Source of the DNA: an uncultured Gammaproteobacteria bacterium
GTDB lineage: Bacteria > Pseudomonadota > Gammaproteobacteria > Steroidobacterales > Foliamicaceae
Reading direction: 5' to 3'
Assembly (NCBI GenBank): GCA_951828235.1
Contig: OX639965.1
Location: 2,042,212-2,106,211, forward strand
Length of the DNA: 64,000 nt
How positions within the stretch are numbered: the first letter of the stretch is position 1; each line of letters opens with the position of its first letter. The translations under genes and the position numbers were made by a program. This document shows positions 8,145-23,373 of the stretch, piece after piece. Under the pieces are notes generated by a model. It was not told where the DNA came from. It did not search any database and saw only the letters and a list, made by a program, of their open reading frames with translations.

Positions 8145-8175
8145 ATTGGAATCCTCTTACACACATGAGGCTAAA

Positions 8176-8655
8176 TCAGCGGTCCGGCGGCTTCGCATCT
8201 TCCATGCTTGTATAGAAATCCGCCAACAGTCCGTATAGCAACTCCAGCCGCTCGCGCCCGAAGTCCGATTCGATTTGCGCGTAGGCAGCCTCCGAATCGG
8301 GCGCGGCTTCTTCGAAGCGTTTTCGCCCGGAAGCAGTCAGCGACACAATCTGCCTGCGCTGGTCGCCCCCATCCACGGATCGCCGCACTATCCCCTCATT
8401 CTCCAGATAGCGAAGGATTCGAGTAAGGCTCGGCGCCAGCAACAGGCTTCGCGAAGCCAGTTTCCCAGCATCTATCGGTCCTGAGTCGACCAGCACGCGG
8501 ATGACTCGCCATTGTTGTTCCGTAAAGCCCCACTCTTTCAGCAGTGGGCGGAATCTCGCCATCGCGGCCTCCCGGGCCTTCAGGAGTTCCATTGGCAGGG
8601 AATGCCGGAAGTCCCGAAGTTCAGGCGTGGATCCCATGCGAGCTTGTTCCGTCAC
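8176..8655 (-). CDS. hpaR: HpaR-like MarR family regulator of homoprotocatechuate degradation
   Basis: This 159-residue MarR protein has a winged helix-turn-helix (TEQQWRVIRVLVDSG, LLAPSLTRILRYLENEGIV, and wing RRSVDGGDQRRQIVSLT) in the usual order. It belongs to the HpaR group, which represses hpa genes and is relieved by 4-hydroxyphenylacetate or homoprotocatechuate. GTG at 8655 overlaps the hpaG stop (GTGA), so it is co-translated with a pathway gene. The likely operator is the palindrome at 9554-9565. Confidence 0.88.
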   Translation of the reverse strand: MTEQARMGSTPELRDFRHSLPMELLKAREAAMARFRPLLKEWGFTEQQWRVIRVLVDSGPIDAGKLASRSLLLAPSLTRILRYLENEGIVRRSVDGGDQRRQIVSLTASGRKRFEEAAPDSEAAYAQIESDFGRERLELLYGLLADFYTSMEDAKPPDR

Positions 8656-9536
8656 AAGTCCTCTTTTGCGACCGGGTTGGTGAGGATTCCGATACCGGGC
8701 ACCTCAACCTCCACAACATCACCGCTCGTCAGAAACTTGGGAGGGTTGAATCGAGCGCCCGCTCCGTTGGGTGTCCCGGTTGCGATGATATCGCCCGGTC
8801 TCAACCTGAAGAATGTCGACAAATAGCTGATCAGATAGCGAATGGAAAACTGGAGATTGGCAGTGACGTCGTTTTGGCGGTCTTCGCCATTGACGCGCGT
8901 CATTATGTGCAGGTTGCCGAACGGGTCCAATTCGTCCGCGGTGACCAGCCACGGTCCCAATGCGCCCGATTTCTCAAAGTTCTTTCCTTGCGTGACATTG
9001 AACTTGGCGTGCCTGAGAAAGTCGCGCAGGCAGCCTTCATTCATTATAGTGAGACCCGCCACATGTTCGTGCGCGGCAGCTTCCGGAATTCGCCGGCCTT
9101 CCTTGCCAACAACCACGGTGATTTCGCCCTCGTAATCCAGCTGGTCCGATTCCGGAGGGTCAAGAAGCGGGGCCTCGTGGCCAACGAGCGATTCACGGGT
9201 GCGCATGAAGACACTTGGGTATCGGGGCGCAAGCGATCCATCTCGGTACTCGGCGTGCCTGTTCGCGTAATTGACACCGATGCAGATGATCTTTTCGGGA
9301 TTGGGAATGGTCGGCAGGAATTCGATTTCGTCGAGCGCGTAGTCGATCGGGGCAATCGAGGCATGGCTGGACAGAAATTGAAGCGTGTCGCTACGAATCG
9401 CGTCGCGCAGGTCGCCAAGAGCACGGAACCTCTGGCCGAGGTCGACGACGCCGGCGCCAACGACCGCGCCAAAGGATGTCTTGCCGGAATGCTTGAAGCT
9501 GAGAAAACGCACGGCCCCGTGACTGTTTGACATCAT
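8652..9536 (-). CDS. hpaG: Fumarylacetoacetate hydrolase family protein, probable HpaG-type decarboxylase/isomerase
   Basis: This 294-residue single-domain FAH-family protein shows IICIGVNYANRHAE, DYEGEITVVVGKEGR and GDIIATGTPNGAG in family order; the acidic residues are expected to bind Mg or Mn. By context it decarboxylates or isomerises the C8 tricarboxylate made in homoprotocatechuate meta-cleavage. In Escherichia coli HpaG has two such domains; here there is one. The start is uncertain: ATG at 9536 is chosen, with ATGs at 9533, 9548 and 9560 also in frame, the last inside the putative operator. No strong ribosome site is seen. FAH-family members are functionally diverse, so the exact reaction is inferred. 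Confidence 0.8.
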   Translation of the reverse strand: MMSNSHGAVRFLSFKHSGKTSFGAVVGAGVVDLGQRFRALGDLRDAIRSDTLQFLSSHASIAPIDYALDEIEFLPTIPNPEKIICIGVNYANRHAEYRDGSLAPRYPSVFMRTRESLVGHEAPLLDPPESDQLDYEGEITVVVGKEGRRIPEAAAHEHVAGLTIMNEGCLRDFLRHAKFNVTQGKNFEKSGALGPWLVTADELDPFGNLHIMTRVNGEDRQNDVTANLQFSIRYLISYLSTFFRLRPGDIIATGTPNGAGARFNPPKFLTSGDVVEVEVPGIGILTNPVAKEDL

Positions 9537-9553
9537 GGTGGAAGGCATTATGC

Positions 9554-9565
9554 TTAACATGTTAA
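9554..9565. promoter_or_regulatory. Candidate HpaR operator between divergent hpa operons
   Basis: TTAACATGTTAA is a perfect 12-bp palindrome in the 63-base gap between hpaG (leftward) and hpaF (rightward). MarR proteins bind palindromes of this size and base composition, and a MarR gene is part of the leftward operon. One site could control both directions. Binding is inferred. Confidence 0.6.
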
Positions 9566-9599
9566 CGGATTTCAATACCAATCTGAATCACCACAATTT

Positions 9600-10010
9600 A
9601 TGCCTCACCAAATTATCGAGTACTCGGCAAATCTGGAGGACCGGATCGACATCACGCGACTGGTGGACGTCCTGCACGCCGCCGCTGTCGGACTTGAGGT
9701 TCTTCCGAAGGCTGGAGTGCGCACGAGAGCGGTACGACGCAACTTGTACAGAATCGCGGACGGTCACGTTGAGAACACCTTCATCCATGTGACGCTTCGG
9801 CTCGCTTCCGGCCGATCCGGCGAGGCCAAGGCGGCGGTCGGCGAGCAGTTATTTGCAGTGCTAAGGGAGCACATAGATCCGTCCGACGATTCCTTTCCTG
9901 CTGCTTTGTCGCTGGAGATACAGGAAATCGACCCGGGCACGCGTTGGAAGGACGGAAACATTCGGGCCCACCTCAAACGTCGTACCGCCGACACACGCGG
10001 AGAGGCATAA
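9600..10010 (+). CDS. hpaF: HpaF, 5-carboxymethyl-2-hydroxymuconate delta-isomerase
   Basis: This 136-residue protein of the tautomerase superfamily starts MPHQIIEYSAN, so Pro would be N-terminal after Met removal; it is the catalytic base in this family. AGVRTRAVRRNLYRIADG, then FIHVTLRLASGRS and LSLEIQEID follow the known CHMI pattern. It isomerises 5-carboxymethyl-2-hydroxymuconate to the oxo-pentene tricarboxylate in the homoprotocatechuate pathway. It is the first gene of the rightward operon, 13 bases before hpaE. Confidence 0.9.
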   Translation: MPHQIIEYSANLEDRIDITRLVDVLHAAAVGLEVLPKAGVRTRAVRRNLYRIADGHVENTFIHVTLRLASGRSGEAKAAVGEQLFAVLREHIDPSDDSFPAALSLEIQEIDPGTRWKDGNIRAHLKRRTADTRGEA

Positions 10011-10022
10011 GAGGGTTGTCCA

Positions 10023-11540
10023 ATGTCAGGTGTCGCTGACAGGCTGCAGGCTGCTCAAGACCTGGTTACCCGATTTCAATCGAGCGTCTTGCCGCACTTT
10101 ATCGATGGCCGTCCAACGCCCGGCATCTCGGGCGCCACCTTCAAGAGCGTGTCTCCGATCGACAACTCAACTATCGGATCTGTTTACGCGGGAAACGCCG
10201 ATGATATCGACATCGCGTGCAAGGCGGCGGCGAATGCGTTCGATGAATGGAAAGCAATCTCTGGAAGAGAGCGTCGGCAAATCCTGCACGATGTTGCTGA
10301 CGCAATTGAGGCCCGCGCGACGGAAATCGCACTGATCGAAAGCTGGGATTCGGGCCAGCCCATCAAGTTCATGTCAAAGGCCGCGATCCGGGGCGCGGAG
10401 AACTTCCGTTTTTTCGCTGATATGTCGCCAGGCGCCAGGGATGGGCTGTCCCTGCCTGCCGAGCAGCATGTCAATTTCACGCAGCGCCAGCCCATCGGCC
10501 CGATCGGTGTGATCACGCCCTGGAACACGCCGTTCATGCTGTCAACATGGAAAATAGCGCCGGCGCTGGCAGCCGGATGCACGGTTGTTCACAAGCCGGC
10601 TGAATGGTCGCCCTACACCGCCATGTTGCTTGCAGAAATCGCACATGAGGCCGGGTTGCCGCCCGGCGTGCTCAACTGCGTTCAGGGATTGGGCGAGCAG
10701 GCCGGCAAGATGCTGACCGAGCATCCTGCGATCAAGGCTGTCGCGTTTGTTGGCGAATCGTTAACGGGCAGCCGCATCATGAAACAAGGCGCCGATACCC
10801 TCAAGCGCGTGCACTTCGAACTGGGTGGGAAAAACCCCGTAATCGTCTTCGCTGACGCGGACATTGAGCGGGCGCTGGATGCGGTCGTTTTCATGATTTA
10901 CAGCATGAATGGCGAGCGTTGCACATCATCCAGCCGCTTGTTGATTCAAGAGTCGATCGAACGGCGTTTCATTGACAGGCTCGTCGAGCGGGTGAGCCAG
11001 ATTAAGGTCGGTAATCCACTGGATCCGGACACCGAGGTCGGTCCCCTCATCCACCGCAGGCATCGCGAGAAGGTCTGCAGCTATTTCGAATATGCGAATC
11101 GAGATGGCGCGGCCATTGTTGCGGGAGGTTCGCCCATCAAGGGGCCCGGAAATTACGTTCAACCGACGGTGATTGCACATGCATCCAATCGCATGCGTAT
11201 TGCGCAGCAGGAGATCTTCGGTCCCGTACTGACCGTTATCCCGTTTGAATATGAAGACGAAGCCGTGCAGATCGCCAACGATACCGAATACGGCCTGGCG
11301 GGGTACATCTGGACTAGCGATGTGGGCCGGGCCCACCGCGTAGCCCAAGGGCTTGACGTCGGCATGGTCTGGGTGAATTCGGAGAACAATCGCCATCTTT
11401 CGTCTCCATTCGGCGGCATGAAGGCCAGCGGCATCGGCAGAGACGGCGGAGACTACAGTTTCGAGTTCTACATGGAAACGAAAAACATATGCGTCGCGCT
11501 CGACAAGCATCGAATTTCTCGACTGGGCGGTGGCTCGTGA
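10023..11540 (+). CDS. hpaE: HpaE-like 5-carboxymethyl-2-hydroxymuconate semialdehyde dehydrogenase
   Basis: This 505-residue NAD-dependent aldehyde dehydrogenase has ITPWNTPFMLSTWK near residue 160, the general base Glu in HFELGGKNP near 265 and the catalytic Cys in NGERCTSSSR near 300. The start ATG has AGAGG upstream. Its place between hpaF and the ring-cleavage dioxygenase genes points to oxidation of the semialdehyde made by ring cleavage. The sequence alone would allow another aldehyde substrate. Its stop overlaps the next start (GTGA). Confidence 0.87.
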   Translation: MSGVADRLQAAQDLVTRFQSSVLPHFIDGRPTPGISGATFKSVSPIDNSTIGSVYAGNADDIDIACKAAANAFDEWKAISGRERRQILHDVADAIEARATEIALIESWDSGQPIKFMSKAAIRGAENFRFFADMSPGARDGLSLPAEQHVNFTQRQPIGPIGVITPWNTPFMLSTWKIAPALAAGCTVVHKPAEWSPYTAMLLAEIAHEAGLPPGVLNCVQGLGEQAGKMLTEHPAIKAVAFVGESLTGSRIMKQGADTLKRVHFELGGKNPVIVFADADIERALDAVVFMIYSMNGERCTSSSRLLIQESIERRFIDRLVERVSQIKVGNPLDPDTEVGPLIHRRHREKVCSYFEYANRDGAAIVAGGSPIKGPGNYVQPTVIAHASNRMRIAQQEIFGPVLTVIPFEYEDEAVQIANDTEYGLAGYIWTSDVGRAHRVAQGLDVGMVWVNSENNRHLSSPFGGMKASGIGRDGGDYSFEFYMETKNICVALDKHRISRLGGGS

Positions 11541-11872
11541 GTCTTTATCAGCTGCAGAAATTCCTGTACGTGCTCAATCGCGACCAAGCGTCACAGCGAA
11601 GATACCGTGACGAGATTCATGAACTTCTGAACGATTTTGACTTGACCGATGAGGAGCGACAGGCCCTCGTCGAGGGCGATATCGGCCTACTTTACGTTCT
11701 CGGCGTTAATGGACAGATCCTAATGCATTTTGCGGCCTTCCTCGGAATCGAGTGGTTCGATTATCTGGAGCTCATGCGGGAAGGCATTCGCAAGCACGGC
11801 CCTGTGCGTGCCGGGGTGTACGCGATGACCGGCGGCGGGGAGCGCTTTACGCAAGAGGAGAAGACACGATGA
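11537..11872 (+). CDS. LigA-like small subunit of a class III extradiol dioxygenase
   Basis: This 111-residue protein resembles the alpha subunit of protocatechuate 4,5-dioxygenase (LigA family): a helical domain with LLNDFDLTDEERQAL and GVNGQILMHFAAF. LigA-type subunits cap the active site of the catalytic LigB subunit. GTG at 11537 is chosen because it overlaps the hpaE stop; an upstream in-frame ATG at 11489 lies inside hpaE. It overlaps the catalytic subunit gene by four bases, supporting a one-to-one complex. The substrate is inferred from context to be homoprotocatechuate. Confidence 0.85.
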   Translation: MSLYQLQKFLYVLNRDQASQRRYRDEIHELLNDFDLTDEERQALVEGDIGLLYVLGVNGQILMHFAAFLGIEWFDYLELMREGIRKHGPVRAGVYAMTGGGERFTQEEKTR

Positions 11873-12693
11873 GTCTCGTATACGCAGGTGTCTTGAGCCA
11901 TGCGCCGGGCATTACCGGGCGTGCCGATCTGGTAAGAGACGTGTCGATCAGAAACGAGTTCTACGAGAAACTGGATCGGCAACGCAAGGAGATCGAGGAA
12001 ATGCAGCCCGATGTCCTGGTTGTGGTTGCCGCAGAGCACTTCGCGAATTTCTTTATGAACAATATGCCTGCATTCTGTGTAGGAATCGGAGAGGAACACG
12101 CTGGCCCTATAGAAGATCCCGAGTGGCTCAAGATCCCCTACACTACGGTGCCGGGTAATGCCGATCTCGGCAACCGGCTCTGCACCGAGATCATGAAGTC
12201 CGTTGACGTCGCGTATGCAGAGGAATGGAAACTGGATCACGGCATCATGGTTCCGCTGCATTTTCTGACGCCCCGGTACGACCTGCCCGTTATCCCCGTG
12301 AACATTAACTGCCAGGGTCCGCCACTGGCGCCACTGCATCGGGTGTGGGCATTTGGCCAAGCCTTGAAACGAGCCTGCGGCACGGTCCCGGAACGAGTGG
12401 CGGTTGTGGGCACCGGAGGGATATCCCATTGGCCGGCAACGCCAGACTCGGGGAAGATCAACGCCGAATGGGATGTGGAGTTTCTCGACCGCCTTCGCCG
12501 CGCCGACAAGAAGGCGCTGCTTTCTTACACGGATGAAGCAACCTACCGTGAGGCCGGACAGGGTGGCTTCGAAATTCGGACCTTTATTGCCGCCGCGGCC
12601 GCCGCAGGTGGTCCGCTGAACCTTCAGTTCTACACCGCAAAGCTGCCGATTTTCGCGGTGGGATGCACCGTTGGTCGATTTGAAATCTTGTGA
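11869..12693 (+). CDS. LigB-like catalytic subunit of extradiol dioxygenase, probable homoprotocatechuate 2,3-dioxygenase
   Basis: This 274-residue LigB-superfamily enzyme has candidate iron ligands in GVLSHAPGI (His near residue 11) and VVAAEHFANF (His near 57), an LDHGIMVPLHFL segment near 125, a GTGGISHWP segment near 185 carrying the likely catalytic His, and a late Glu in GGFEIRTF. It would open the catechol ring of homoprotocatechuate with Fe(II) and oxygen. AAGAGGAGAAG precedes the ATG. Because it has a LigA partner it differs from the single-subunit HpaD. Substrate preference cannot be read from sequence; protocatechuate or gallate are alternatives. Confidence 0.85.
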   Translation: MSLVYAGVLSHAPGITGRADLVRDVSIRNEFYEKLDRQRKEIEEMQPDVLVVVAAEHFANFFMNNMPAFCVGIGEEHAGPIEDPEWLKIPYTTVPGNADLGNRLCTEIMKSVDVAYAEEWKLDHGIMVPLHFLTPRYDLPVIPVNINCQGPPLAPLHRVWAFGQALKRACGTVPERVAVVGTGGISHWPATPDSGKINAEWDVEFLDRLRRADKKALLSYTDEATYREAGQGGFEIRTFIAAAAAAGGPLNLQFYTAKLPIFAVGCTVGRFEIL

Positions 12694-12818: not shown

Positions 12819-14237
12819 TTATTCTTGCCGGTTCGCGCTCGCAATCAGGCCCTCGCGTTTCAGGTCGCGGCAGGTTGCCTCGATGGCGGTGCGCAGGATC
12901 GCAAACAGCTCGTCAGCTTGAGACCGATCCAGGATCAAGGGGGGCGACAGGACGACCTGCTGGCCCACCGGCCTCACGATCAGGCCGCGGTCGCGGCAAT
13001 GCCGGAACACGCGCTCGGCGATCCTTGTTTTTGCGGCGAAGGATCTTTGCGAAGCCTTGTTCTCGACAAACTCGACGCCCACCATGAAATGGCTGCCACG
13101 CACGTCGCCGACGATCGGCAGATCGCCGAGGGATTGCGCCAGCGAGCAAAGGTGCGGACCCAGTTCCCGAACGTTTTCGCAAAGGCGCTCCCGCTCCATG
13201 ATTTCGATGTTTTTCAACGCGGCCGCGCAGGCGACAGGATGCCCTGAGTAGGTGAAACCCATGGACAGAAGTCCGCCCTCGCACTGCGGCTGGCTGATGA
13301 CCCTGTAAATCTCCTCGGAAAAAAGGGCAAAGCCAAGCGGAAGGTACCCGGACGTGACGCCCTTGGCGCCCACCAGGATGTCGGGGACATAACCGTACGC
13401 GGATTCCGAGGCGAACCAGTGGCCCAGGCGGCCGAATCCCGTAACCACCTCGTCGGCGATGTACAGGATGTCGTGCTCCCGGCAGACCTCCCACGCCTTC
13501 CTGTGATAGCCTTCCGGCGCCACCAGCACCCCGCCCGCTCCGATGATCGGCTCGGCAATGAAGGCCGCCACGTTATCGGCCCCGAGCTGCATGATCCGGT
13601 TCTCCAGCTCCGCGACCAAAAAGTCGCGGTACTCCGTCTCGTTCAATCGTTCGGCGCCCTTCGGGCGGCGATACATGTCCGGTGCGGACACATGGTGAAT
13701 CCAGTCGTCGGCTATGCGGTCGAAGCCCCGCTTGGTGTCGTGTATTCCGGTCAGATTGGCAGTCACGTAGGTTGAACCGTGATAGGCCCTGAGACGTGAG
13801 ATGACCTTCTTCTTTTGCGGCTTGCCGCGGAGGTTGTTGTAGTAGTGCGTCAGGCGGATCGCGGCGTCGTTGGCCGTCGAACCGCCCGTTGTGTAGAAAA
13901 CGCGGTTCAGGTTGCCGGGCGCCAGTTCGGCCAGCTTCGCCGACAGCATCGCGGCCGGCTCGTTGCTGCTGTGGCCGAACGGGTTGTAGTACTGCATCCT
14001 TAACACCTGCCGGGCGATGCACTCGGCCATTTCCCTTCGGCCGTGTCCGATGTTCACGCACCACAGTCCGGCGATTCCGTCGAGGAACCGGTTGCCGTGC
14101 GAATCGACTACGTACACCCCGTCGGCTTCGGTGATGATCTGGCTGCCTTCTTCCCCGAAGCTCGTGAAGTCCGTGTAGGGATGGATGAAGTGGTCCCGGT
14201 CCATCCGCCAAAGCGTTGTGGCGTCGATTTTCTTCAT
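12819..14237 (-). CDS. Class III PLP aminotransferase, probable diamine/polyamine:pyruvate type
   Basis: This 472-residue protein is a full-length omega-aminotransferase: GIAGLWCVNIGHG near residue 55, YHGSTYVTANLTG near 150, ADEVVTGFGRLG near 260 and the PLP lysine in VGAKGVTSGYLPLG near 288. It is most similar in pattern to putrescine/diamine-pyruvate aminotransferases of the SpuC kind, but beta-alanine or taurine transaminases look alike. It is the last gene of the operon with the NhaC transporter (1-base gap) and agmatine deiminase, which favours putrescine or a related amine as substrate. Confidence 0.82.
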   Translation of the reverse strand: MKKIDATTLWRMDRDHFIHPYTDFTSFGEEGSQIITEADGVYVVDSHGNRFLDGIAGLWCVNIGHGRREMAECIARQVLRMQYYNPFGHSSNEPAAMLSAKLAELAPGNLNRVFYTTGGSTANDAAIRLTHYYNNLRGKPQKKKVISRLRAYHGSTYVTANLTGIHDTKRGFDRIADDWIHHVSAPDMYRRPKGAERLNETEYRDFLVAELENRIMQLGADNVAAFIAEPIIGAGGVLVAPEGYHRKAWEVCREHDILYIADEVVTGFGRLGHWFASESAYGYVPDILVGAKGVTSGYLPLGFALFSEEIYRVISQPQCEGGLLSMGFTYSGHPVACAAALKNIEIMERERLCENVRELGPHLCSLAQSLGDLPIVGDVRGSHFMVGVEFVENKASQRSFAAKTRIAERVFRHCRDRGLIVRPVGQQVVLSPPLILDRSQADELFAILRTAIEATCRDLKREGLIASANRQE

Positions 14238-14238
14238 T

Positions 14239-15594
14239 TCAGAACGCCGCAGCCAGGACGAAAACGAACGCGGCGCAGGCCGCCGCGAGCATGGCGTAGG
14301 GCAGTTGCGTCAGTGCATGATCCATGACACGGCAGCCGCTGCCGTGCGCCGAGAGGACTGTAGAGTCGCCGTAAAAACAGGTATGGCTGCCGAAGGCGCT
14401 GGCCGAAATCAGCGCCCCTACGACCAGGGGGGTGTTCGCGTCCATGCTGGAGGCGAGCGGCAGAACAATAGGTATGGCCACGGCGAATATGCCCCAAAAT
14501 GATCCGGTAGCGAAGGCGATCAGGGCCATGGTCACGAAGGTAACAAGCGGTAACAGCATGGGCGTCATGATGGGTTCAACGAGTCCTATCACGTATGGAG
14601 TCAGCCCGAGCTGGTCGTTGACCTCCTTGAGCATGAACCCGGCCACCACGGTTCCGAGCGGCAGCAGCATCGACTTGAATCCATCCATCATGGTGTCGAA
14701 CAGCTCACCCGGCTTGAGCAGTCTCTGGTAGAAGACCAGGGCCAGGGTGACCGCAAGCGCGACGATAACGCCCTTGAAGATGTCGATATCCAGGAACCAG
14801 GTGAAGAAGAGGAGCGTCACAAGGGGGACGAAGAAGTTCAGCACGACCTTGCGGACGTCACCCTTGTGCCCCCGTCCGGAACCATTCTGCGCCGGCGCGG
14901 GATCGGGGCCGGCGGCGACCTTGCGTTCCGCCACCCTCATGGCGCCGAGCAGCGGGATTTTCCCCAGCGCCACCAGGGGAACGATGAGGACCGCGATCCA
15001 GGCATAGAACATATAGGGAATGGCCTGGATATAGATGCGGAGGCCCTCACCGGCGTCGAGCGCCATGCCGTCTTCGAGGAGGGCCGAGAAATAGACGGAC
15101 CAGGTGGACAGCGGAACGATGACACAGATGGGCGCCGCGGTGGAATCGACCACGTAGGCCAGCATCTCCCTCGAGACGCGGAACTTGTCCGTGACCGCCT
15201 TCATGGACGAGCTGATCGTGAGGGAATTGAGATAGTCATCGATGAATATGGCCAAGCCCAACAGCCAGGTCGTTATCAGCGCCCCCTTCCTGCCCGTGAT
15301 GCGCCGGGCCGCCACCCGGCCGAAGGCGACCGCGCCGCCGATCTTCACCAGCAACGCGATCAGGCCGCCCATCAGCCCGCACACCATGATGACCCAGCCT
15401 ATGGTGTCGTCGGCCATGACCGTCAACACCACGCCGGTCAGATTGCCCAGCAGTTCGGCCGGCTGCAGTATGAGCAGCCCCAGGATCACACCGGCCACCA
15501 GGGGTTCGATCGTGCGCTTGGAGAGGATTGCCAGTATCAGTACCAGCAAGGTGGGGAGCAGACACTCGACCCCGGTTGCCGTTGCTTGGTCCAT
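14239..15594 (-). CDS. NhaC-family Na+/H+ antiporter-like membrane transporter
   Basis: This 451-residue integral membrane protein has roughly ten to twelve hydrophobic segments and NhaC-family signatures: FIDDYLNSLTISSSMK near residue 125, STAAPICVIVPLSTW near 158, ATGSFWGIFAVAIP near 365 and SHTCFYGDSTVLSA near 408. The family includes Na+/H+ and Na+/amino-acid-type exchangers. Its position between an aminotransferase and agmatine deiminase genes suggests inner-membrane uptake of a nitrogenous substrate, but this is inference. Confidence 0.8.
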   Translation of the reverse strand: MDQATATGVECLLPTLLVLILAILSKRTIEPLVAGVILGLLILQPAELLGNLTGVVLTVMADDTIGWVIMVCGLMGGLIALLVKIGGAVAFGRVAARRITGRKGALITTWLLGLAIFIDDYLNSLTISSSMKAVTDKFRVSREMLAYVVDSTAAPICVIVPLSTWSVYFSALLEDGMALDAGEGLRIYIQAIPYMFYAWIAVLIVPLVALGKIPLLGAMRVAERKVAAGPDPAPAQNGSGRGHKGDVRKVVLNFFVPLVTLLFFTWFLDIDIFKGVIVALAVTLALVFYQRLLKPGELFDTMMDGFKSMLLPLGTVVAGFMLKEVNDQLGLTPYVIGLVEPIMTPMLLPLVTFVTMALIAFATGSFWGIFAVAIPIVLPLASSMDANTPLVVGALISASAFGSHTCFYGDSTVLSAHGSGCRVMDHALTQLPYAMLAAACAAFVFVLAAAF

Positions 15595-15623
15595 AGGTTA
15601 CGCCAGACAAGCCGCTCCGGTAC

Positions 15624-16946
15624 TCACGGCGCGGATCGGCAGGCGCCCAAGGGTTGCTGTTGCGTCGCGCAGTGAATCCCTCCGCCCACGTAGTTGAGCG
15701 GGGTGGGATCGATCCGGATTAGGTCGCGCCCCGGATAGGCTGATTCGAGCGCACGCCCTGCCGCGGCATCCTTGGTCCGGTTGCCGTATTCGGGCACGAT
15801 GACCAGTCCGTTGGTAGCAAGGTAGTTGGCGTAACTCGATACCCTCACGATATGGACGGGCTCACCTTTGGGGAACCTCGGAGCGCCGCGGGCATAGTCC
15901 AGCTCCTCCAGGAAACGGCAGTACATAGGTTCGTCGGGTCGCACCGGCCGGAAGGCGATGTCCGGCGTGGGGATGCGGACGATCTCGAAGGGCCGGCCGT
16001 CCTGGTCGGTTGCTTCGGACAGGATCCGATACGCCTCTTCAAGCCGGGCCTGGTTGACGGCGGCGATGGGGTCCGCGGCGGCCTCCTCGTCCGCGACCTC
16101 CGCTAGCAGAATCCGGCGGGGGCTGGCGAACTGGCAAAACACATCGACATGGCCGCCGGTAGCCTGCGGATTGTACAGGTGGATCAACTCGCCGTCGGCG
16201 TCGAAATAGGGGATTGGCCCGTGCTCGGCGCGCCTGTCCTCCTCAAGGCCGGAATTCAGCCAGATGACCTTGCTTGCGCCCAGTACGCGCTTGTACGCGG
16301 CTTCCAGATCTTCCAGGGCGGCGCCCGGATTGCGCTCCAGCTCGACGGCGCGATTGACCACGAGAACGCCCCGGCCGTTGCCGATCCTGTTGCCTCCCTC
16401 GCTCACCAGGGTCGAATTCAGCACCCTGTCTATCCCGAGGAACTCGGCAACCCTTTCCGGAACCGCCGACATGGCTCTCGATATCGGGTCGGCGGTAGTG
16501 GAATAGCCCCACTGATTCTGCGCGAAGGCCGCAATCGACAAGCTGTTCGTGCGGCGGTTCCGGACGAAGATCGGTCCGTAGTCGCGCACCCACACATTAA
16601 CCTGGGGGATCGGTAGGAAGCGTATGCGCGAAGAGATCGGGTAGCCGTTCCGCAGCATCCAGTCCCGGGCGGCCCGCACACCTTCTTCATCGGTGCACAT
16701 GACATTCGCCGGAACCTGGTAGTGGGACAGCGCGCAGGCAATTTCCGCGATAGTTCGGCGAGTGTCGAGTTCCCGATCCTCAAACCACTGAAATGTCGGC
16801 CAGCCAAGCCAGACGGAGGCCTGGGCCTCAAATTCCCCGGGTGTCAGCCAGCGGCCCGGGGGCGCGTCAGCCTCGGGCCATGTTCGCAACCCGGCAGCGG
16901 CCTGTGCGTCGGAGCCCTTCAACCCGCGGCCGATAGAATGCGTCAC
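15624..16946 (-). CDS. aguA: Agmatine deiminase family protein
   Basis: This 440-residue protein belongs to the agmatine deiminase / peptidyl-arginine deiminase family. VWVRDYGPIFVRN carries the substrate-binding Asp, GGHVDVFCQF the His-x-Asp pair, and YVGGGIHCATQQQP the catalytic Cys near residue 428. The known reaction converts agmatine to N-carbamoylputrescine and ammonia. It is somewhat longer than usual AguA (about 370) because of an N-terminal extension and insertions. GTG at 16946 is chosen, with AGGAGG just upstream. No AguB-type nitrilase follows, but an M20 carbamoylase-like gene is in the operon. Confidence 0.88.
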   Translation of the reverse strand: MTHSIGRGLKGSDAQAAAGLRTWPEADAPPGRWLTPGEFEAQASVWLGWPTFQWFEDRELDTRRTIAEIACALSHYQVPANVMCTDEEGVRAARDWMLRNGYPISSRIRFLPIPQVNVWVRDYGPIFVRNRRTNSLSIAAFAQNQWGYSTTADPISRAMSAVPERVAEFLGIDRVLNSTLVSEGGNRIGNGRGVLVVNRAVELERNPGAALEDLEAAYKRVLGASKVIWLNSGLEEDRRAEHGPIPYFDADGELIHLYNPQATGGHVDVFCQFASPRRILLAEVADEEAAADPIAAVNQARLEEAYRILSEATDQDGRPFEIVRIPTPDIAFRPVRPDEPMYCRFLEELDYARGAPRFPKGEPVHIVRVSSYANYLATNGLVIVPEYGNRTKDAAAGRALESAYPGRDLIRIDPTPLNYVGGGIHCATQQQPLGACRSAP

Positions 16947-16953
16947 AGCCCTC

Positions 16954-19209
16954 CTAGAAGCTCATCGACAGGTCGATGCCGTAGGTGCGTTTGTACCCCG
17001 GAGTGACCAGAATGCTGCCCAGCCCTTGCAGGTCGTTGACATACTGAGAGTATTGCTCGTCGGCAATGTTCTTCACCCAAACGGAGGCGGACCACCGTCC
17101 GCCGGCCTCCCCCAAGCCCAGCCTGGCGTTGAACAGCGTGTACCCTTCAATCCTGCTGATCGGAGTGTTGGTCGATTCAGCCCAGTGATCGAGGCGCGTG
17201 GTGAAATCCACCTGCCCGTAAATCAGACGGTTCCCGGCCAGGGGCACTTCGTACCGAACCAGACCATTGCCGCTGAGTTCCGGCGCATACACGAGTTCAT
17301 TGCCGTCCAGGCGCTCCTGCACATCATAGGGGCTGGTGTCGATCCGCTTCGTTTCCGTATCCAGCCAGGTCAGCCCCAACTTCACGTCCCAGCCCTCCGC
17401 CGGCACCAGCCAGATCTCCGATTCAAAACCCCAGACCTCGGCGTCGGCGCCGTTCTCGTTGATCAGTGGGTCGAAGCCCGGATTGTCGGGCAGCTCGGCG
17501 CCCGGAACGGACAGAGCCAGTATCACGTCTTGGTAATCATAGTAGAACAGCGATGCGTTCCAGCGCAGCCTGCCGTCGAGCAGGTCCGATTTGGCGCCGA
17601 GTTCATACGATGTCAGCGTTTCCTTTTCGTACGGTTCTTCCAGGATGGACTGCACGGTGATGTCGCCGATAAATCCGCCGCTCTTGAATCCATTGGCGAT
17701 CTTGCCGTACGCCATCACCTGATCCGACACGTCGAAACTTGCGCCGATGGTCCAGGACAGCTCGCTGAAGTTGATTTCCCTGTCCAGGAACGCAGCGGTC
17801 GTGACCGAACCGGAATGGGCCACGAAATCACCCGCCGCGGAGGGGCCGCCTGCCGGAGTGACATCGAAGGTTCCGCCCGAGAAAGCCCTGTCCTCGTCCG
17901 TATAACGCAGTCCGGCGAGCACCCGGAATTGATCGCTGACGTGGTACTCGCCGTGAACGAAAGCCGCGACGGAGTCGGTCTCCATCAGATAGGTGTGATT
18001 CTGGTTGTAGCCAAGATCGAATCCGTCCGTTTCCGTAAGGGGCGTATCCAGTTCATCGGTCGAGTAGAACAGGCCCACGGTCCAATCCAGGCTGTCGCCC
18101 GAGGAGGACAGGCGCAATTCCTGAGAAAACTGTTCAAAGTCCGTCTCGTAGCCAACATCAATATTTCTGTCGAGGGCCCCGTCGGCGTCCTCTTGCGACT
18201 CGCGGTCAGCCCGGTTGTAGCCCGTGACCGAGATGAGCATCAACTCGTCGCTGACCTCGTAATCGACTGCCAGCACGGCGCCCGACGCCGCGATGTCATC
18301 ACGGTTGATAACGCCGCCCTGCAGCGTGAAAGGATCGCCGTCGTCAATCAGGGAGTCGCCGCTATTGAAGGAGCAGCCGGCCGAAACGCCCAGGTCGCCG
18401 CGCATGATCGGATCGCAGACTTCGTAACTGCCATCCGTCTTGAAGGTGGGCAGCCCCTGATATTGGTTGCCTTCGGAGTCCTCAGTCCCGCCGAACAGGG
18501 TGAGATGGGCGGACATGCGGTCAGAGACTTCCCATAACAATTGCCCTCTCACGGCGAACCTTTCCTGCGAGCCGATTTCACCATGAACGGGGTGATTGAA
18601 GGGTCCGCCGCCCTGATTGGTTACGCTAGCAGAGAGTCGGCCGAGCACCGTTTCGCTCAGGCCGCCGCTAACGTAGCCTTCCAGCGTCAGCGCGTCGAAT
18701 CGGCCATAGCCCAGGTCCACGCCGGCCTCGAATTCGCTCGTGGGTCTGGCGGAAAAGAAATTCACCGCGCCGCCCGTGGTATTGCGCCCGAACAGGGTGC
18801 CTTGCGGTCCCTTCAGCACCTCGACGCGGTCGAGATCGAACAGCGCGAAGTTCAGCAGCGTGGAATTGCCGTAGAAGATCTCATCCACGTGAATGGCAAC
18901 GGGAGAGCTCTGAATGGCCGTAAAGTCGTTCAAGCCCACTCCACGCAGGACGAAGTTGGGAATCGCGTTGGTCGAAGAATAGGAAACGATCAGGCCCGGC
19001 GTCTGGTACTGTACGTCGGCCGCCGTGCCGAACCCCAGTTCCTTCATCTCGTAGCCATCCAGCGTCGTGATTGCGATGGGTACGTCCTGAATGTTCTGCT
19101 CCCTCTTCTGCGCCGTGACGACAACCTCCTCGATCGTCTGGCCAGCCGCCGCGCCGACGCTCAAAACAAGCGCAATTCCCAAACCGGAAGCGATAATTTT
19201 TTGGTCCAT
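16954..19209 (-). CDS. TonB-dependent outer membrane receptor
   Basis: This 751-residue protein starts with a signal peptide (MDQKIIASGLGIALVLSVGAAAGQ). It has a TonB box-like region (IEEVVVTAQKREQNIQDVP), a plug domain with VLKGPQGTLFGRNTTGGAVN, and a long beta-barrel ending in Phe (DLSMSF), as needed for outer membrane insertion. It would import a scarce ligand across the outer membrane using the proton motive force. ATG at 19209 has GGAG upstream; the longer frame to 19305 lacks a signal peptide start. It is eight bases upstream of the deiminase gene, so the ligand is probably the operon's substrate rather than iron. Confidence 0.9.
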   Translation of the reverse strand: MDQKIIASGLGIALVLSVGAAAGQTIEEVVVTAQKREQNIQDVPIAITTLDGYEMKELGFGTAADVQYQTPGLIVSYSSTNAIPNFVLRGVGLNDFTAIQSSPVAIHVDEIFYGNSTLLNFALFDLDRVEVLKGPQGTLFGRNTTGGAVNFFSARPTSEFEAGVDLGYGRFDALTLEGYVSGGLSETVLGRLSASVTNQGGGPFNHPVHGEIGSQERFAVRGQLLWEVSDRMSAHLTLFGGTEDSEGNQYQGLPTFKTDGSYEVCDPIMRGDLGVSAGCSFNSGDSLIDDGDPFTLQGGVINRDDIAASGAVLAVDYEVSDELMLISVTGYNRADRESQEDADGALDRNIDVGYETDFEQFSQELRLSSSGDSLDWTVGLFYSTDELDTPLTETDGFDLGYNQNHTYLMETDSVAAFVHGEYHVSDQFRVLAGLRYTDEDRAFSGGTFDVTPAGGPSAAGDFVAHSGSVTTAAFLDREINFSELSWTIGASFDVSDQVMAYGKIANGFKSGGFIGDITVQSILEEPYEKETLTSYELGAKSDLLDGRLRWNASLFYYDYQDVILALSVPGAELPDNPGFDPLINENGADAEVWGFESEIWLVPAEGWDVKLGLTWLDTETKRIDTSPYDVQERLDGNELVYAPELSGNGLVRYEVPLAGNRLIYGQVDFTTRLDHWAESTNTPISRIEGYTLFNARLGLGEAGGRWSASVWVKNIADEQYSQYVNDLQGLGSILVTPGYKRTYGIDLSMSF

Positions 19210-19327
19210 CACGAGGGTACTCCGCAAGCAAAATCCGCAGAGTAAACTTCTAGCATGCCCCCCCAAGCTCTCGCAATCCCTTAAATGAGGGGGCAGCTTA
19301 CGCAATGAGTCCGCCTTGCGGCCCCTC

Positions 19328-20566
19328 TCAGGCCATGCTCAATACCGCCTGCAGCAGCACATTGGCACCTGCTTCAAGGTCTTCCGGCCTGGCGCTCTCC
19401 GCCTCGTTGTGAGAAACCCCGCCCTCGCAGGGCACGAAAATCATTCCCGCAGGCGCCACCGAGGCCAGATTGACGGTGTCGTGCCCGGCGCCGCTGATGA
19501 TATTCATGTGGCTGTAATTCAGGCGCCTGACGGCTTGTCGCACCGCCTGAATGCATTCAGGCGCGAAATCCGTGACCGGCATGCGCCAGACTTCCTCAAG
19601 AGACCCTTGCAGCCGCCGCGACTTGCATTCACGTGCGACGCTCGCTCGAAGCTCCCTTTCCATTTGATCCAGCACGACCGCTTCGGGATGCCGCAAGTCG
19701 ATCTTGGCCAATGCCCGTTCAGCAACCGTGTTTCGCGACCCGGGTTCCGTTTGAATGTCACCGATGGTCGCCCGGGCCCAGGGCGCATGTTGAGCCGCCA
19801 GGTCGTAGCAAAGGCGCAACAATGGCAGCAGGCCGGCGACCGGATCACGGCGCGTTTCCATGGGCGTGGGCCCGGCGTGACTGGGTTTCCCCCATATCGT
19901 CAGGTCATACCAGCAAACCCCCTGGGCGCCCGTGACGACGCCTACTTGTTTGCCTTCGGCCTCAAGAATCGGGCCCTGTTCGATATGAACCTCGAAGGCG
20001 GCCTTGACGGGCCGGGCGCGGGCCGGCGTCCGGCTCTTGCAGCCGTGGCGCCGCAGTTCGCTTTCAAGCGAAACGCCCGTTCGATCCGTGGCTCGATACA
20101 TTTCATTCAGATCGAGAGCGCCGGACCAGACGCCGGAGCCCATCATGGCCGGCGTAAAGCGCACGCCCTCCTCGTTGGTCCACACAACGACTTCAATCGG
20201 ATGATCCGTTTCGATGGCGTTCTCGTCTAGGAGTCTCAGAATTTCGACGCCCGACAAAACGCCGTACACCCCGTCGAACTTCCCGCCCGTTGTTTGCGTG
20301 TCAAGGTGGCTGCCGATCATTACGGGCGGGGAATCCGGCGCCTTGCCGTCGCGCCTCGCGAAAATATTGCCGATGGCGTCCATCGTCACGCGAGCCTTTG
20401 CCTGCTCGCACCAGCGTATGAAGAGCTCGCGGCCCGCCTTGTCCTCGTCGGTCATGGCCTGCCGGTTACAGCCGCCCCTGGGGGTCGCCCCGATTTCGGC
20501 CATTGTCATCAGGCTGTCCCAGAGGCGCCCGCCATGGACGCGCAATTCAAGTAGCCGTGAGTTCAT
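19328..20566 (-). CDS. M20-family Zn amidohydrolase, N-carbamoyl-L-amino-acid hydrolase / allantoate amidohydrolase type
   Basis: This 412-residue enzyme has the family metal and catalytic motifs: IGSHLDTQTTGGKFDG near residue 80 (His, Asp), WTNEEGVRF near 128 (Glu-Glu), FEVHIEQGP near 193 (His), and GVSHNEAE near 385 (His). The dimerisation domain motif GKPSHAGPTPM is also intact. Members cleave carbamoyl groups from amino acids, ureidopropionate or allantoate, releasing ammonia and CO2. It heads the leftward operon (118 bases before the receptor). With agmatine deiminase next in the operon, it could act on an N-carbamoyl amine; this is a hypothesis. ATG at 20566 starts the conserved region. 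Confidence 0.85.
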   Translation of the reverse strand: MNSRLLELRVHGGRLWDSLMTMAEIGATPRGGCNRQAMTDEDKAGRELFIRWCEQAKARVTMDAIGNIFARRDGKAPDSPPVMIGSHLDTQTTGGKFDGVYGVLSGVEILRLLDENAIETDHPIEVVVWTNEEGVRFTPAMMGSGVWSGALDLNEMYRATDRTGVSLESELRRHGCKSRTPARARPVKAAFEVHIEQGPILEAEGKQVGVVTGAQGVCWYDLTIWGKPSHAGPTPMETRRDPVAGLLPLLRLCYDLAAQHAPWARATIGDIQTEPGSRNTVAERALAKIDLRHPEAVVLDQMERELRASVARECKSRRLQGSLEEVWRMPVTDFAPECIQAVRQAVRRLNYSHMNIISGAGHDTVNLASVAPAGMIFVPCEGGVSHNEAESARPEDLEAGANVLLQAVLSMA

Positions 20567-20739
20567 TCCAAGGCGCCATTTTCCAGTGCGGCCTAGGATT
20601 ATAGGGTTGCGGCCGAGTGTGCAATACCCACAATTGGGTATGATTGACGCGGCGAAAAGCGGGCGGGTAGAGTTGTTTCCGCAAGGGCAGCCACTCAAAC
20701 GGAACTATCTCAAGCAAAGCGCCACATCCCCACGAGAAT

Positions 20740-21582
20740 GTGACTCCGCCGGGTTTCCCTGGCCTCCAGGAAGCCGAGGGCTGGTGCGCAACGCTCGCGG
20801 ACATGATCGGGGCGCTCGGCAAGCCGGAGTTTCCCGAACTCTATCTGAAGGCCATAAGATCCATAGCGGATCTCGACAGCGCCGTGATCATGGGCTATGG
20901 AATGGGCTCGCGGCCGGAGATATTGCGCGAAGAACTCGCCGACAAATACCGCGGGGTGTTCTACGACCGGTACATGAAGGGCGCCTTCCTGCTCAGTCCG
21001 CTCTACCAGGTGTTCCGGTCGGGCAGGCAAGGGTTCTTTCACGTGGGGGAAGTTGCGCCGGACGGGTTCTTCGAGAGCCGGTACTACGAGGAATACTATG
21101 GCCACAGCGGACTGGTCGATCAGGTTTTCTATCTCAAACGCTTCGACAACGGTATCGCCATAGTCGCTTCCCTGGGCCGGACAAGGAAGATGAGCGCCTA
21201 CGATCGGCCGAGCATCGAGGCTTTGCGGTGGATCGAACCCGTCGCTCTTTCGCTGATGGCGAGGAACTGGGAACATCTGGACGCCGCCAATCCGTCTTTT
21301 TCCGATTACCTGCACCGCGCCTTCGAGACCTTCGGGACTTCAGCATTGAGCAAGCGCGAAAAGGAGGTGGTCAACGGCATACTGCAGGGTGCCTCGTCCA
21401 AGGCGGTCGCCAGGGAGATGCGGATATCTCCCCAAACGGAGCGGTCCTATCGAAAAAACATCTACAGGAAACTGGCCGTCAATTCCCACTCGGAGCTGTA
21501 CTACCTGTTCTTCCGCTGTCTCGATTTTGCCGACCAGGCAGAGGGGCGGGACCCTCTGGAGATGCTGCGCCGGACCGGATAG
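20740..21582 (+). CDS. LuxR-type transcriptional regulator
   Basis: This 280-residue protein has a C-terminal LuxR helix-turn-helix (TSALSKREKEVVNGILQG, SSKAVAREMRISPQT, YRKNIYRKL, residues about 205-260). The N-terminal domain of about 190 residues has no motif I recognise; it may sense a ligand. The gene is divergent from the M20/TonB receptor operon, with a 173-base gap between them, which makes it the likely activator of that operon. GTG at 20740 or ATG at 20803 could start it; neither has a strong ribosome site. No acyl-homoserine lactone synthase is in the window. Confidence 0.82.
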   Translation: MTPPGFPGLQEAEGWCATLADMIGALGKPEFPELYLKAIRSIADLDSAVIMGYGMGSRPEILREELADKYRGVFYDRYMKGAFLLSPLYQVFRSGRQGFFHVGEVAPDGFFESRYYEEYYGHSGLVDQVFYLKRFDNGIAIVASLGRTRKMSAYDRPSIEALRWIEPVALSLMARNWEHLDAANPSFSDYLHRAFETFGTSALSKREKEVVNGILQGASSKAVAREMRISPQTERSYRKNIYRKLAVNSHSELYYLFFRCLDFADQAEGRDPLEMLRRTG

Positions 21583-21848: not shown

Positions 21849-23024
21849 TCACACCACTGTTTTCTTTCCTGTTACAACGATATAGTCTGCCCATTCTTGC
21901 ATCAGTTCACGTCGAGCCTCGAACAAGTCGGACCGAAAATAGGCACCCTCTACACCCAAAACAACGTGTGCGAGGGCGGCGTTCGCTAAGGACCGCGACT
22001 TGCCGTGCTCGGCACAATAGTCACGGAAGCTGGAGCGAAAACCGTGCACGGTCGTTTTGTCTGCCAAGCCCGTGTCCCGCAAGGCCTTTAGGAGCGCCAT
22101 GTTGGATAGAGGGCTCCCGGGTTTACGGGGCGAGCCAAAAACCAGTCCCGCTCTCGACTTCCTTTTCAAGCGTCCGGCCTCTTTAAGGACGGCTAATGCA
22201 CCCGTGCTCAGGGGCACGCGGTGCTCGCGTCGCGCCTTCATGCGGGTCGCAGGGATACACCACTGCCGCTTGGTCAATTCGATCTCCTTCCAGCGCGCTT
22301 CCCGCGCTTCCGCGCCGCGCACCGCGGTTAGGACCACGAAACGCAAGCACAGCTTGACGATCGGGGTTACCCGGGAGGAGTCGACTATCTGAAGCGCTTG
22401 GCCCACTTCGGCATATGGCATTGCCAGGTAGTGTCGCTGATTTTTCTGCATGCGTGGCAGGGCCGCATTGATGCAGTCTCCGGCGGGGTTCTCCGTTACA
22501 TAGTCATACGCCTCGCACCAATCGAGGATGGTGCGGATACGCTGGCGCACCCTTCTTGCCGTTTCTGGCCGCATGGTCCAGATTGGTTCAAGGACGGCCA
22601 AGACATCCGGGCGCGTGATTTCGTCGACGCGCTTTTCGGCCAGGGTGGGGAAAGCATGGCGCTGTAGCGTCTGTATCCAGCCTCGCGCATGTGCTTCGTT
22701 GGTCCAACTGGGCCGAAACAGCTCATGGACGCGACGCGCGGCTTCTTCAAACGTCGGCACGCTGCGAGCACGTTTCTTTTCTGCGGCGATATCGCGTCCG
22801 TTGCTAACGGGGACCCGATTGGCGATGGGGCGTTCGCGCGCTTCAGCCACGCAGACCTTGGGAAATGGTCCCAGGCCGAGATCGTGTCGGCGTCCACGGA
22901 ATCCGATACGCTGAACCCAGGACTTGGATCCACGCGGCGACACCACCAAGTACAGCGTGTTGCCGTCGCCGTACCGACCCGGGCGGGTCAGCGCGTGCAC
23001 ATCCAAATCGGTCAATCTGCCCAT
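21849..23024 (-). CDS. Tyrosine recombinase (P4-type integrase)
   Basis: This 391-residue integrase has an N-terminal arm-binding domain (LTRPGRYGDGNTLYLVVSP, DUF4102-like), a core-binding SAM-like domain, and a C-terminal catalytic domain. The Arg (LTAVRGAEARE), His-x-x-Arg (VHGFRSSFRD), His (AALAHVV) and Tyr (EGAYFRSDLFEARR) are all present, so it may be active. It is transcribed away from tRNA-Ala, whose 3' end lies 225 bases upstream: a typical place for an integrase of an island integrated at a tRNA. Only the integrase and no cargo is seen. Confidence 0.92.
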   Translation of the reverse strand: MGRLTDLDVHALTRPGRYGDGNTLYLVVSPRGSKSWVQRIGFRGRRHDLGLGPFPKVCVAEARERPIANRVPVSNGRDIAAEKKRARSVPTFEEAARRVHELFRPSWTNEAHARGWIQTLQRHAFPTLAEKRVDEITRPDVLAVLEPIWTMRPETARRVRQRIRTILDWCEAYDYVTENPAGDCINAALPRMQKNQRHYLAMPYAEVGQALQIVDSSRVTPIVKLCLRFVVLTAVRGAEAREARWKEIELTKRQWCIPATRMKARREHRVPLSTGALAVLKEAGRLKRKSRAGLVFGSPRKPGSPLSNMALLKALRDTGLADKTTVHGFRSSFRDYCAEHGKSRSLANAALAHVVLGVEGAYFRSDLFEARRELMQEWADYIVVTGKKTVV

Positions 23025-23111
23025 GCGGCAAATCGTGCCTGTTGGAGGGGTTCGAAACGGTCCCTAATGGCCTCAAAAAAGCCCAGTTCGAACTTGAGTT
23101 TTTCCCACGGC

Positions 23112-23132
23112 TTAACCCACATAGTGGGGTAA
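23112..23132. promoter_or_regulatory. Inverted repeat upstream of the integrase
   Basis: TTAACCCAC-ATA-GTGGGGTAA pairs at 8 of 9 positions around a 3-base centre. It is about 90 bases upstream of the integrase start in an AT-richer 224-base gap between the integrase and tRNA-Ala. It may be an arm-type integrase site or operator. Nothing else recognisable was found in the gap; no clear copy of the tRNA 3' end was seen at the far side of the integrase. Confidence 0.45.
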
Positions 23133-23248
23133 AAACTAGCACGATTCCGGAAAATTTCAACGAGAGGGTATAGTGCGAAAACCTTTTTGCATCAATATCT
23201 TACAGAAATCTTGCCCGTCAGCCGACGGCACGGTATTGTGTTCGAAAA

Positions 23249-23321
<73 letters not shown>

Positions 23322-23373
23322 ATGGATGTGGCAGTCCTGAACGACTGCCGTGGAAAACGGCGATTTTATCCTG

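Follow-up and report, generated by a model that had tools for sequence, protein, structure and literature searches.

Organisation of the locus

We analysed a 64,000-nucleotide stretch of DNA, referred to here as the window, from an uncultured gammaproteobacterium of the family Foliamicaceae (contig OX639965.1), and identified within it a leftward operon of five genes spanning 12819-20566 on the minus strand with a divergently oriented LuxR-type regulator beside it. In reading order the operon encodes an M20-family amidohydrolase, a TonB-dependent receptor, a deiminase of the agmatine deiminase type, an NhaC-type transporter and a class III aminotransferase, separated by gaps of approximately 118, 7, 29 and 1 bp (Table 1). 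A first-pass annotation made from the sequence alone had placed the same five genes and the divergent regulator at these coordinates and strands, and our check of open reading frames together with family scores agrees, apart from small corrections to the starts of the M20 gene (ATG at 20566) and the receptor gene (ATG at 19209). The six genes probably form a catabolic cassette, acquired horizontally, whose substrate is agmatine or a guanidino-amine closely resembling it, and most likely supply nitrogen and carbon by uptake and breakdown of the amine. An RNA search of the window between 6 and 24 kb returned a tRNA as its sole match, with no guanidine riboswitch or other RNA control element in that interval.

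Table 1 Features of the cassette and its right-hand side (positions in the window)
Feature	Position	Strand	Remarks
Class III aminotransferase (PRK07036 family)	12819..14237	-	Last operon gene; NF005447 (PRK07036), 678 bits, cut-off 618
NhaC-family (PF03553) inner-membrane transporter	14239..15594	-	PF03553, 76 bits
Agmatine-deiminase-type guanidine deiminase, divergent subfamily	15624..16946	-	PF04371, 225 bits
TonB-dependent outer-membrane receptor, 751 aa	16954..19209	-	Plug (PF07715, 55 bits) and barrel (PF00593, 121 bits) Pfam matches
M20-family amidohydrolase, hydantoinase/carbamoylase type	19328..20566	-	First operon gene; TIGR01879, 396 bits, cut-off 204
Divergent intergenic control region	20567..20739	.	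Candidate operator ATACCCACAATTGGGTAT at 20624-20641, perfect 7-bp arms
LuxR/GerE-type regulator, divergent	20740..21582	+	GerE, 54 bits
Tyrosine integrase beside tRNA-Ala (context, outside the pathway)	21849..23024	-	Pfam Phage_integrase, Arm-DNA-bind_3
tRNA-Ala (CGC)	23248-23322		tRNA search

Conservation and distribution of the cassette

Among 196 genomes searched from the same order, deiminases at 56-58 % identity were found in three metagenome-assembled genomes (MAGs) of another family, all belonging to one genus, while the remaining matches were partial or distant with far lower scores. In all three of these MAGs (L021-L023) the six genes keep their order and orientation, with identities of 57-75 %. 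When about 85,000 species genomes were scanned, the same three were recovered along with one further carrier, a MAG (L036) from sample 277c of the sponge Petrosia ficiformis. The flanks of the window cassette have nothing in common with those of the other carriers, and because the six-gene order recurs in another family amid different flanking genes it is not a product of chance. The first-pass annotation had regarded non-conservation of the gene order as grounds for abandoning its proposal, and this order is thus conserved. The deiminase is absent from all eight relatives examined within the window organism's own genus. The conserved gene set, the unshared flanks, this absence in eight congeners and the integrase with tRNA-Ala on the right side together point to a compact and patchily distributed unit that has probably been transferred horizontally. 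Allowing up to 3 mismatches over 27 bases, neither the window nor the genome yielded a second attachment site or tRNA end, leaving the left border of the island undefined.

The deiminase

The deiminase is a PF04371 protein carrying the catalytic residues D122, H266, D268 and C426, each invariant across 57 aligned sequences. The closest PDB folds to its AlphaFold2 model (pLDDT 87, pTM 0.88) are of the agmatine deiminase type, with TM-scores of 0.83-0.87 on the target for AguA structures. Peptidylarginine deiminase was considered and rejected as PPAD structures fit worse (0.64-0.66 on the target) and no signal peptide is visible. A long insert precedes the catalytic HxD. Plant AguA grips the terminal amine of agmatine with Asp220 and, through water, with Asp89 (PMC6447857); the Asp89 position is occupied by Asn in the window deiminase and by Asp in its relatives. 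Substrate specificity cannot be read from these residues and agmatine is best regarded as a candidate substrate. A group of Bacteroidota PF04371 proteins (L037-L049; Cyclobacterium, Lewinella and others) shares the GG-x-Arg motif of the window subfamily and has a similarly long loop ahead of HxD, and most of the group has lost the usual Glu of EGG.

The M20 enzyme and the search for AguB

The M20 enzyme belongs to the hydantoinase/carbamoylase family, matching PRK09290.1-3 (573 bits, cut-off 452) in addition to TIGR01879. The motifs HLDTQ, NEEG, HIEQG and SHNE are present along with N278 and R291 (counted from the N of NSRLL, start Met excluded). Its top PDB match is 5thw, which is listed with bound N-carbamoyl-beta-alanine (PMC10952681). 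The enzyme retains the arginine equivalent to Arg291, the residue forming a salt bridge with the substrate carboxylate, and so might have 4-ureidobutyrate as its substrate, at the stage following that of AguB, the enzyme that converts N-carbamoylputrescine to putrescine in the AguA-AguB pathway. Allantoate degradation was rejected as a role, since the score against allantoate deiminase AllC (TIGR03176) is 209 bits for a cut-off of 597.75 and the operon lacks ureide genes.

Phylogenetic analysis placed the four cassette M20 proteins in one clade (support 100/99), the sister of which is an M20 from a Halioglobus plasmid that adjoins a TonB receptor and a different guanidine-modifying pentein, of the DDAH/ADI type and related to Sll1336, a neighbourhood in keeping with the pathway proposed below. 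On this plasmid, pRR3-57 of Halioglobus pacificus, the TonB receptor, pentein and M20 genes (L135:4571-12220) are accompanied by a major facilitator superfamily transporter and an amidohydrolase; this M20 clade therefore has a second cluster around it, distinct from the cassette, that resembles one for guanidine degradation. M20 proteins from related clusters in the sponge MAG, Halomonas, Rhizobium and Ensifer branch outside the cassette clade. M20 and deiminase genes thus seem to have come together on more than one occasion, an argument for functional coupling. Several other M20 relatives adjoin dihydropyrimidinase, and the cassette enzyme is 44-51 % identical to such copies. A role for the operon M20 in pyrimidine degradation is unlikely, as no dihydropyrimidinase lies alongside and a pyrimidine-type cluster, complete with a nitrilase, is found elsewhere in the genome.

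No AguB scoring above the TIGR03381 cut-off (410 bits) was found in the operon, the window genome or the three cassette MAGs. The first-pass statement that AguB is absent thus holds for the operon and, above the cut-off, for the genome; it needs qualifying for a nitrilase (G000:C1:1873458) that reaches 240 bits, the best such match in the window genome, which is probably a beta-ureidopropionase because a hydantoinase/dihydropyrimidinase-like gene lies beside it. The surrounding region (L126; G000:C1:1864001-1884000) resembles a pyrimidine-catabolism cluster and encodes a TonB receptor, hydantoinase/dihydropyrimidinase, nitrilase, class III aminotransferase and two aldehyde dehydrogenases. AguB-like nitrilases of 247-254 bits in the three related MAGs (L127, L128, L129) follow genes that by eye resemble SpeA and a deoxyhypusine-synthase-like protein, which is a biosynthetic setting; the sole PF04371 protein in these MAGs is the cassette deiminase.

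Aminotransferase, transport and regulation

Relatives of the aminotransferase at 57-62 % identity occur in AguA/AguB/Pot clusters of Ensifer, Phyllobacterium and Halomonas, and by analogy the enzyme looks like a polyamine aminotransferase. Chromosomal relatives have Pot-type neighbours with no further deiminase or M20 pairs. In Eleftheria terrae (L181:5965-8795) a polyketide synthase cluster contains a relative paired with a gene annotated as gamma-aminobutyraldehyde dehydrogenase, which suggests a supply of gamma-aminobutyrate (GABA) for a natural product.

The NhaC-type transporter is a member of the wider PF03553 family and not NhaC proper (TIGR00931, 31 bits against a cut-off of 370). Its relatives adjoin AguA in Halomonas, AguA-AguB and PuuC-like genes in Vibrio (L185), a Puu-type set in Thioclava (L184) and a glutamine-synthetase-type gene in Shewanella; a Pseudoalteromonas relative has no such polyamine-type neighbours. 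Here the label Puu for the oxidase, ligase and amidotransferase genes of Thioclava and Vibrio reflects product names and gene order, there being no NCBIfam match for PuuA, PuuB or PuuD. Judged by these neighbours, the transporter probably carries a polyamine. The first-pass annotation knew of no described pathway with this set of genes, and its pairing of an aminotransferase and an NhaC-type transporter with agmatine metabolism is supported by the presence of relatives of both in agmatine and putrescine clusters.

The TonB receptor contains a TonB-box-like IEEVVVTA, judged by eye, and has orthologues of 59-60 % identity at the same position in three MAGs. It lies outside the common core, being missing from both the sponge MAG and the Halomonas cluster, and import of the substrate, as proposed for it in the first-pass annotation, is a putative role. 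Orthologues of the LuxR regulator are 59-60 % identical in the cassette MAGs, and relatives at 30-34 % identity are found in the sponge MAG, Halomonas, Rhizobium and Ensifer clusters. The candidate operator ATACCCACAATTGGGTAT aligns with a TACCC..CA..TGGG pattern in L021-L023; this is weak evidence for a binding site, as such a palindrome can occur by chance in 200 bp.

Related clusters in other bacteria

The cluster of the sponge MAG, which ends at a contig end, keeps the LuxR regulator, deiminase (58 %), aminotransferase (53 %) and M20. An ATP-binding cassette (ABC) importer replaces the TonB receptor and the NhaC-type transporter, its four proteins each matching best the putrescine models PotF, PotG, PotH and PotI. 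Compared with E. coli PotF, at positions which we take to be ligand-contacting, the binding protein keeps D39, E66, E185, D247, D278, W37, Y40, W244 and Y314 and differs at S85, E184 and F276. NhaC-type and Pot systems would by this analogy look like alternative polyamine importers. No AguB was found in this genome, the best match scoring 52 bits.

The plasmid relatives nearest to the aminotransferase are found in agmatine clusters. A Phyllobacterium plasmid (L132) carries a deiminase, Pot ABC genes, aminotransferase, AguB (448 bits, above the cut-off), a second deiminase and a LuxR-type regulator. Two Ensifer plasmids carry Pot ABC genes, aminotransferase, AguB, deiminase and LuxR and, further along, an aldehyde dehydrogenase adjoining an M20. 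This adjacency recurs in Rhizobium lusitanum, where LuxR, M20, aldehyde dehydrogenase, aminotransferase and Pot ABC genes are grouped. Halomonas sp. PA16-9 (L130) combines LuxR, a PuuC-like aldehyde dehydrogenase (674 bits), M20, aminotransferase, NhaC and a true AguA (572 bits against the TIGR03380 equivalog) with no AguB beside the cluster. The NhaC-type gene of this strain (L130:10685-11790) is read in two frames, reflecting a frameshift or sequencing error.

Proposed pathway and alternatives

The replacement of the transporters by a Pot importer in the sponge MAG, the agmatine- and Puu-type clusters of relatives and the Halomonas cluster together suggest that the substrate is probably agmatine-like and that the M20 enzyme removes a carbamoyl group. 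We infer the substrate, the order of steps and the direction of transport from this context. The TonB receptor and NhaC-type carrier would import the amine. The deiminase would then turn the guanidine into a carbamoyl group, agmatine giving N-carbamoylputrescine with release of NH3, and 4-ureidobutanal would arise as the aminotransferase takes off the free amine. Oxidation by an aldehyde dehydrogenase from outside the cassette would convert this to 4-ureidobutyrate, which the M20 enzyme would hydrolyse to GABA, CO2 and NH3. The carbamoyl would thus serve as a protecting group, like gamma-glutamyl in the Puu pathway, making both AguB and free putrescine dispensable, and the LuxR regulator would probably sense the amine or an intermediate. 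We tentatively favour this order, with the M20 acting on 4-ureidobutyrate, because the carboxylate arginine is kept and the adjacency of aldehyde dehydrogenase and M20 repeats. It is possible, and only slightly more tentative, that an agmatine route with a carbamoyl protecting group and the M20 step last exists in several forms in marine Gammaproteobacteria and perhaps in rhizobia.

A number of observations weigh against this order or against agmatine as the substrate. The window-type cassette has no aldehyde dehydrogenase of its own, Ensifer holds AguB and M20 together, and R. lusitanum has no deiminase within the retrieved stretch. The carboxylate arginine may be kept merely by descent, and the M20 proteins of Halomonas, Ensifer and Rhizobium, lying outside the window clade, are analogies and not orthologues. 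The deiminase scores 151 bits against the curated AguA equivalog, under the cut-off of 381.8, and in its subfamily the position aligned with Asp220 of plant AguA is Ala, Ser or Thr, following an insert of approximately 25 residues, although another acid in the longer tail loop could replace it. The first-pass name of agmatine deiminase is therefore sound for family, fold and catalytic residues, while the protein falls outside the curated AguA equivalog and has a rebuilt tail-binding loop.

The absence of an aldehyde dehydrogenase would be explained if the M20 enzyme instead cut N-carbamoylputrescine directly to putrescine, from which the aminotransferase would give 4-aminobutanal. This AguB-like order, a close rival though less likely in our estimation, would add the M20 to AguB and AguY as the third kind of N-carbamoylputrescine amidohydrolase, without homology to either. 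In the sponge MAG the M20 follows the aminotransferase exactly at the place of AguB in Phyllobacterium and Ensifer, within a genome without AguB, and AguY is a precedent for an unrelated enzyme having been substituted at this step (PMC12283126). Yet the carboxylate-gripping arginine would face the positive end of N-carbamoylputrescine, the relatives of the M20 to which a role can be assigned adjoin dihydropyrimidinase and are hence probably beta-ureidopropionases, and its adjacency to aldehyde dehydrogenase elsewhere points to a ureido acid. The first-pass annotation had proposed that the M20 either replaces AguB or acts on a carbamoyl amino acid; the first option agrees with its place in the sponge MAG cluster relative to that of Phyllobacterium, and the retained arginine also allows 4-ureidobutyrate, one stage after AguB.

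The absence of the amine-binding Asp from its aligned position and the longer tail loop would also suit a guanidino acid such as 4-guanidinobutyrate, 3-guanidinopropionate or taurocyamine, in which case the deiminase would give a ureido acid, the M20 an omega-amino acid and the aminotransferase a semialdehyde. The three enzymes would then make a complete chain with no intervening aldehyde dehydrogenase, in keeping with the preference of M20 for acids and with the omega-amino-acid enzymes among class III aminotransferases. We consider such a substrate unlikely, as two unrelated transporter types have polyamine partners (NhaC, and PotFGHI with its amine-binding acids kept) and the aminotransferase family sits with AguA, AguB and Pot genes. 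We give still less weight to a guanidine natural product of larger size or a conjugate of agmatine, for example from a sponge or alga, of which the M20 may cut an amide and not a carbamoyl group. A small amine would not usually call for a TonB receptor, one carrier derives from a sponge sample and an aromatic-acid degradation cluster adjoins the operon in the window, but neither the sponge MAG nor Halomonas has the receptor, the other carriers lack the aromatic cluster, and the ligand residues of the M20 are of the carbamoyl-acid type.

Comparison with known systems

The cassette resembles the AguA-AguB pathway, in which agmatine is converted via N-carbamoylputrescine to putrescine, in the Pfam family and fold of its deiminase, and AguA-AguB clusters of Ensifer, Phyllobacterium and Vibrio share its aminotransferase family and transporter types. 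It differs in the sub-threshold deiminase with the long insert before HxD, in having M20 for AguB and in the added TonB receptor. The AguA-AguY system of Shewanella and Actinomycetota is similar in employing an unrelated enzyme at the AguB step and in its patchy, probably horizontal spread (PMC12283126). AguY is an amidase homologue related to GatA (PMC12283126), whereas its counterpart in the cassette, a metal-dependent M20 hydrolase, may work at a later point with the acid as substrate. With the Puu pathway, which proceeds through gamma-glutamyl-putrescine, the cassette would share the logic of a protected amine, and further links are the PuuC-like aldehyde dehydrogenase of the Halomonas relative and the NhaC-type carriers in Puu-type clusters of Thioclava and Vibrio; the protecting group would be a carbamoyl made by the deiminase instead of a glutamyl, with an aminotransferase for PuuB and M20 for PuuD. 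M20 enzymes beside dihydropyrimidinase have the same family, metal and ligand residues as the cassette M20, which nevertheless falls with deiminase partners in a clade of its own and has no dihydropyrimidinase in its operon.

The listed exits from agmatine to putrescine are AguB, AguY, putrescine transcarbamylase and agmatinase only (PMC12283126). Our search of the open-access literature, subscription papers being outside its scope, returned no M20 N-carbamoylputrescine hydrolase and no bacterial 4-ureidobutyrate route. If the proposal is correct, an M20 at this step would add another instance of convergence or be part of an agmatine-to-GABA route bypassing putrescine. It would also correct the annotation of these M20 proteins, which match an 'allantoate amidohydrolase' model, and give PRK07036 aminotransferases and one NhaC subgroup a testable role in polyamine use by marine bacteria, at least one of them from a sponge. 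The culturable carriers Halomonas and Ensifer allow direct testing.

Surroundings of the cassette

G+C content is mostly lower to the left of the integrase than to its right (21849-23322 in the window). Directly next to the cassette, and like it to the left of the integrase (6693-12693), are genes for 4-hydroxyphenylacetate (homoprotocatechuate) degradation that are not shared by other cassette carriers. These encode HpaB (626 bits), a MarR-type regulator, an HpaG-type isomerase, an HpaF-like protein, HpaE (782 bits) and LigA/LigB-type dioxygenase proteins.

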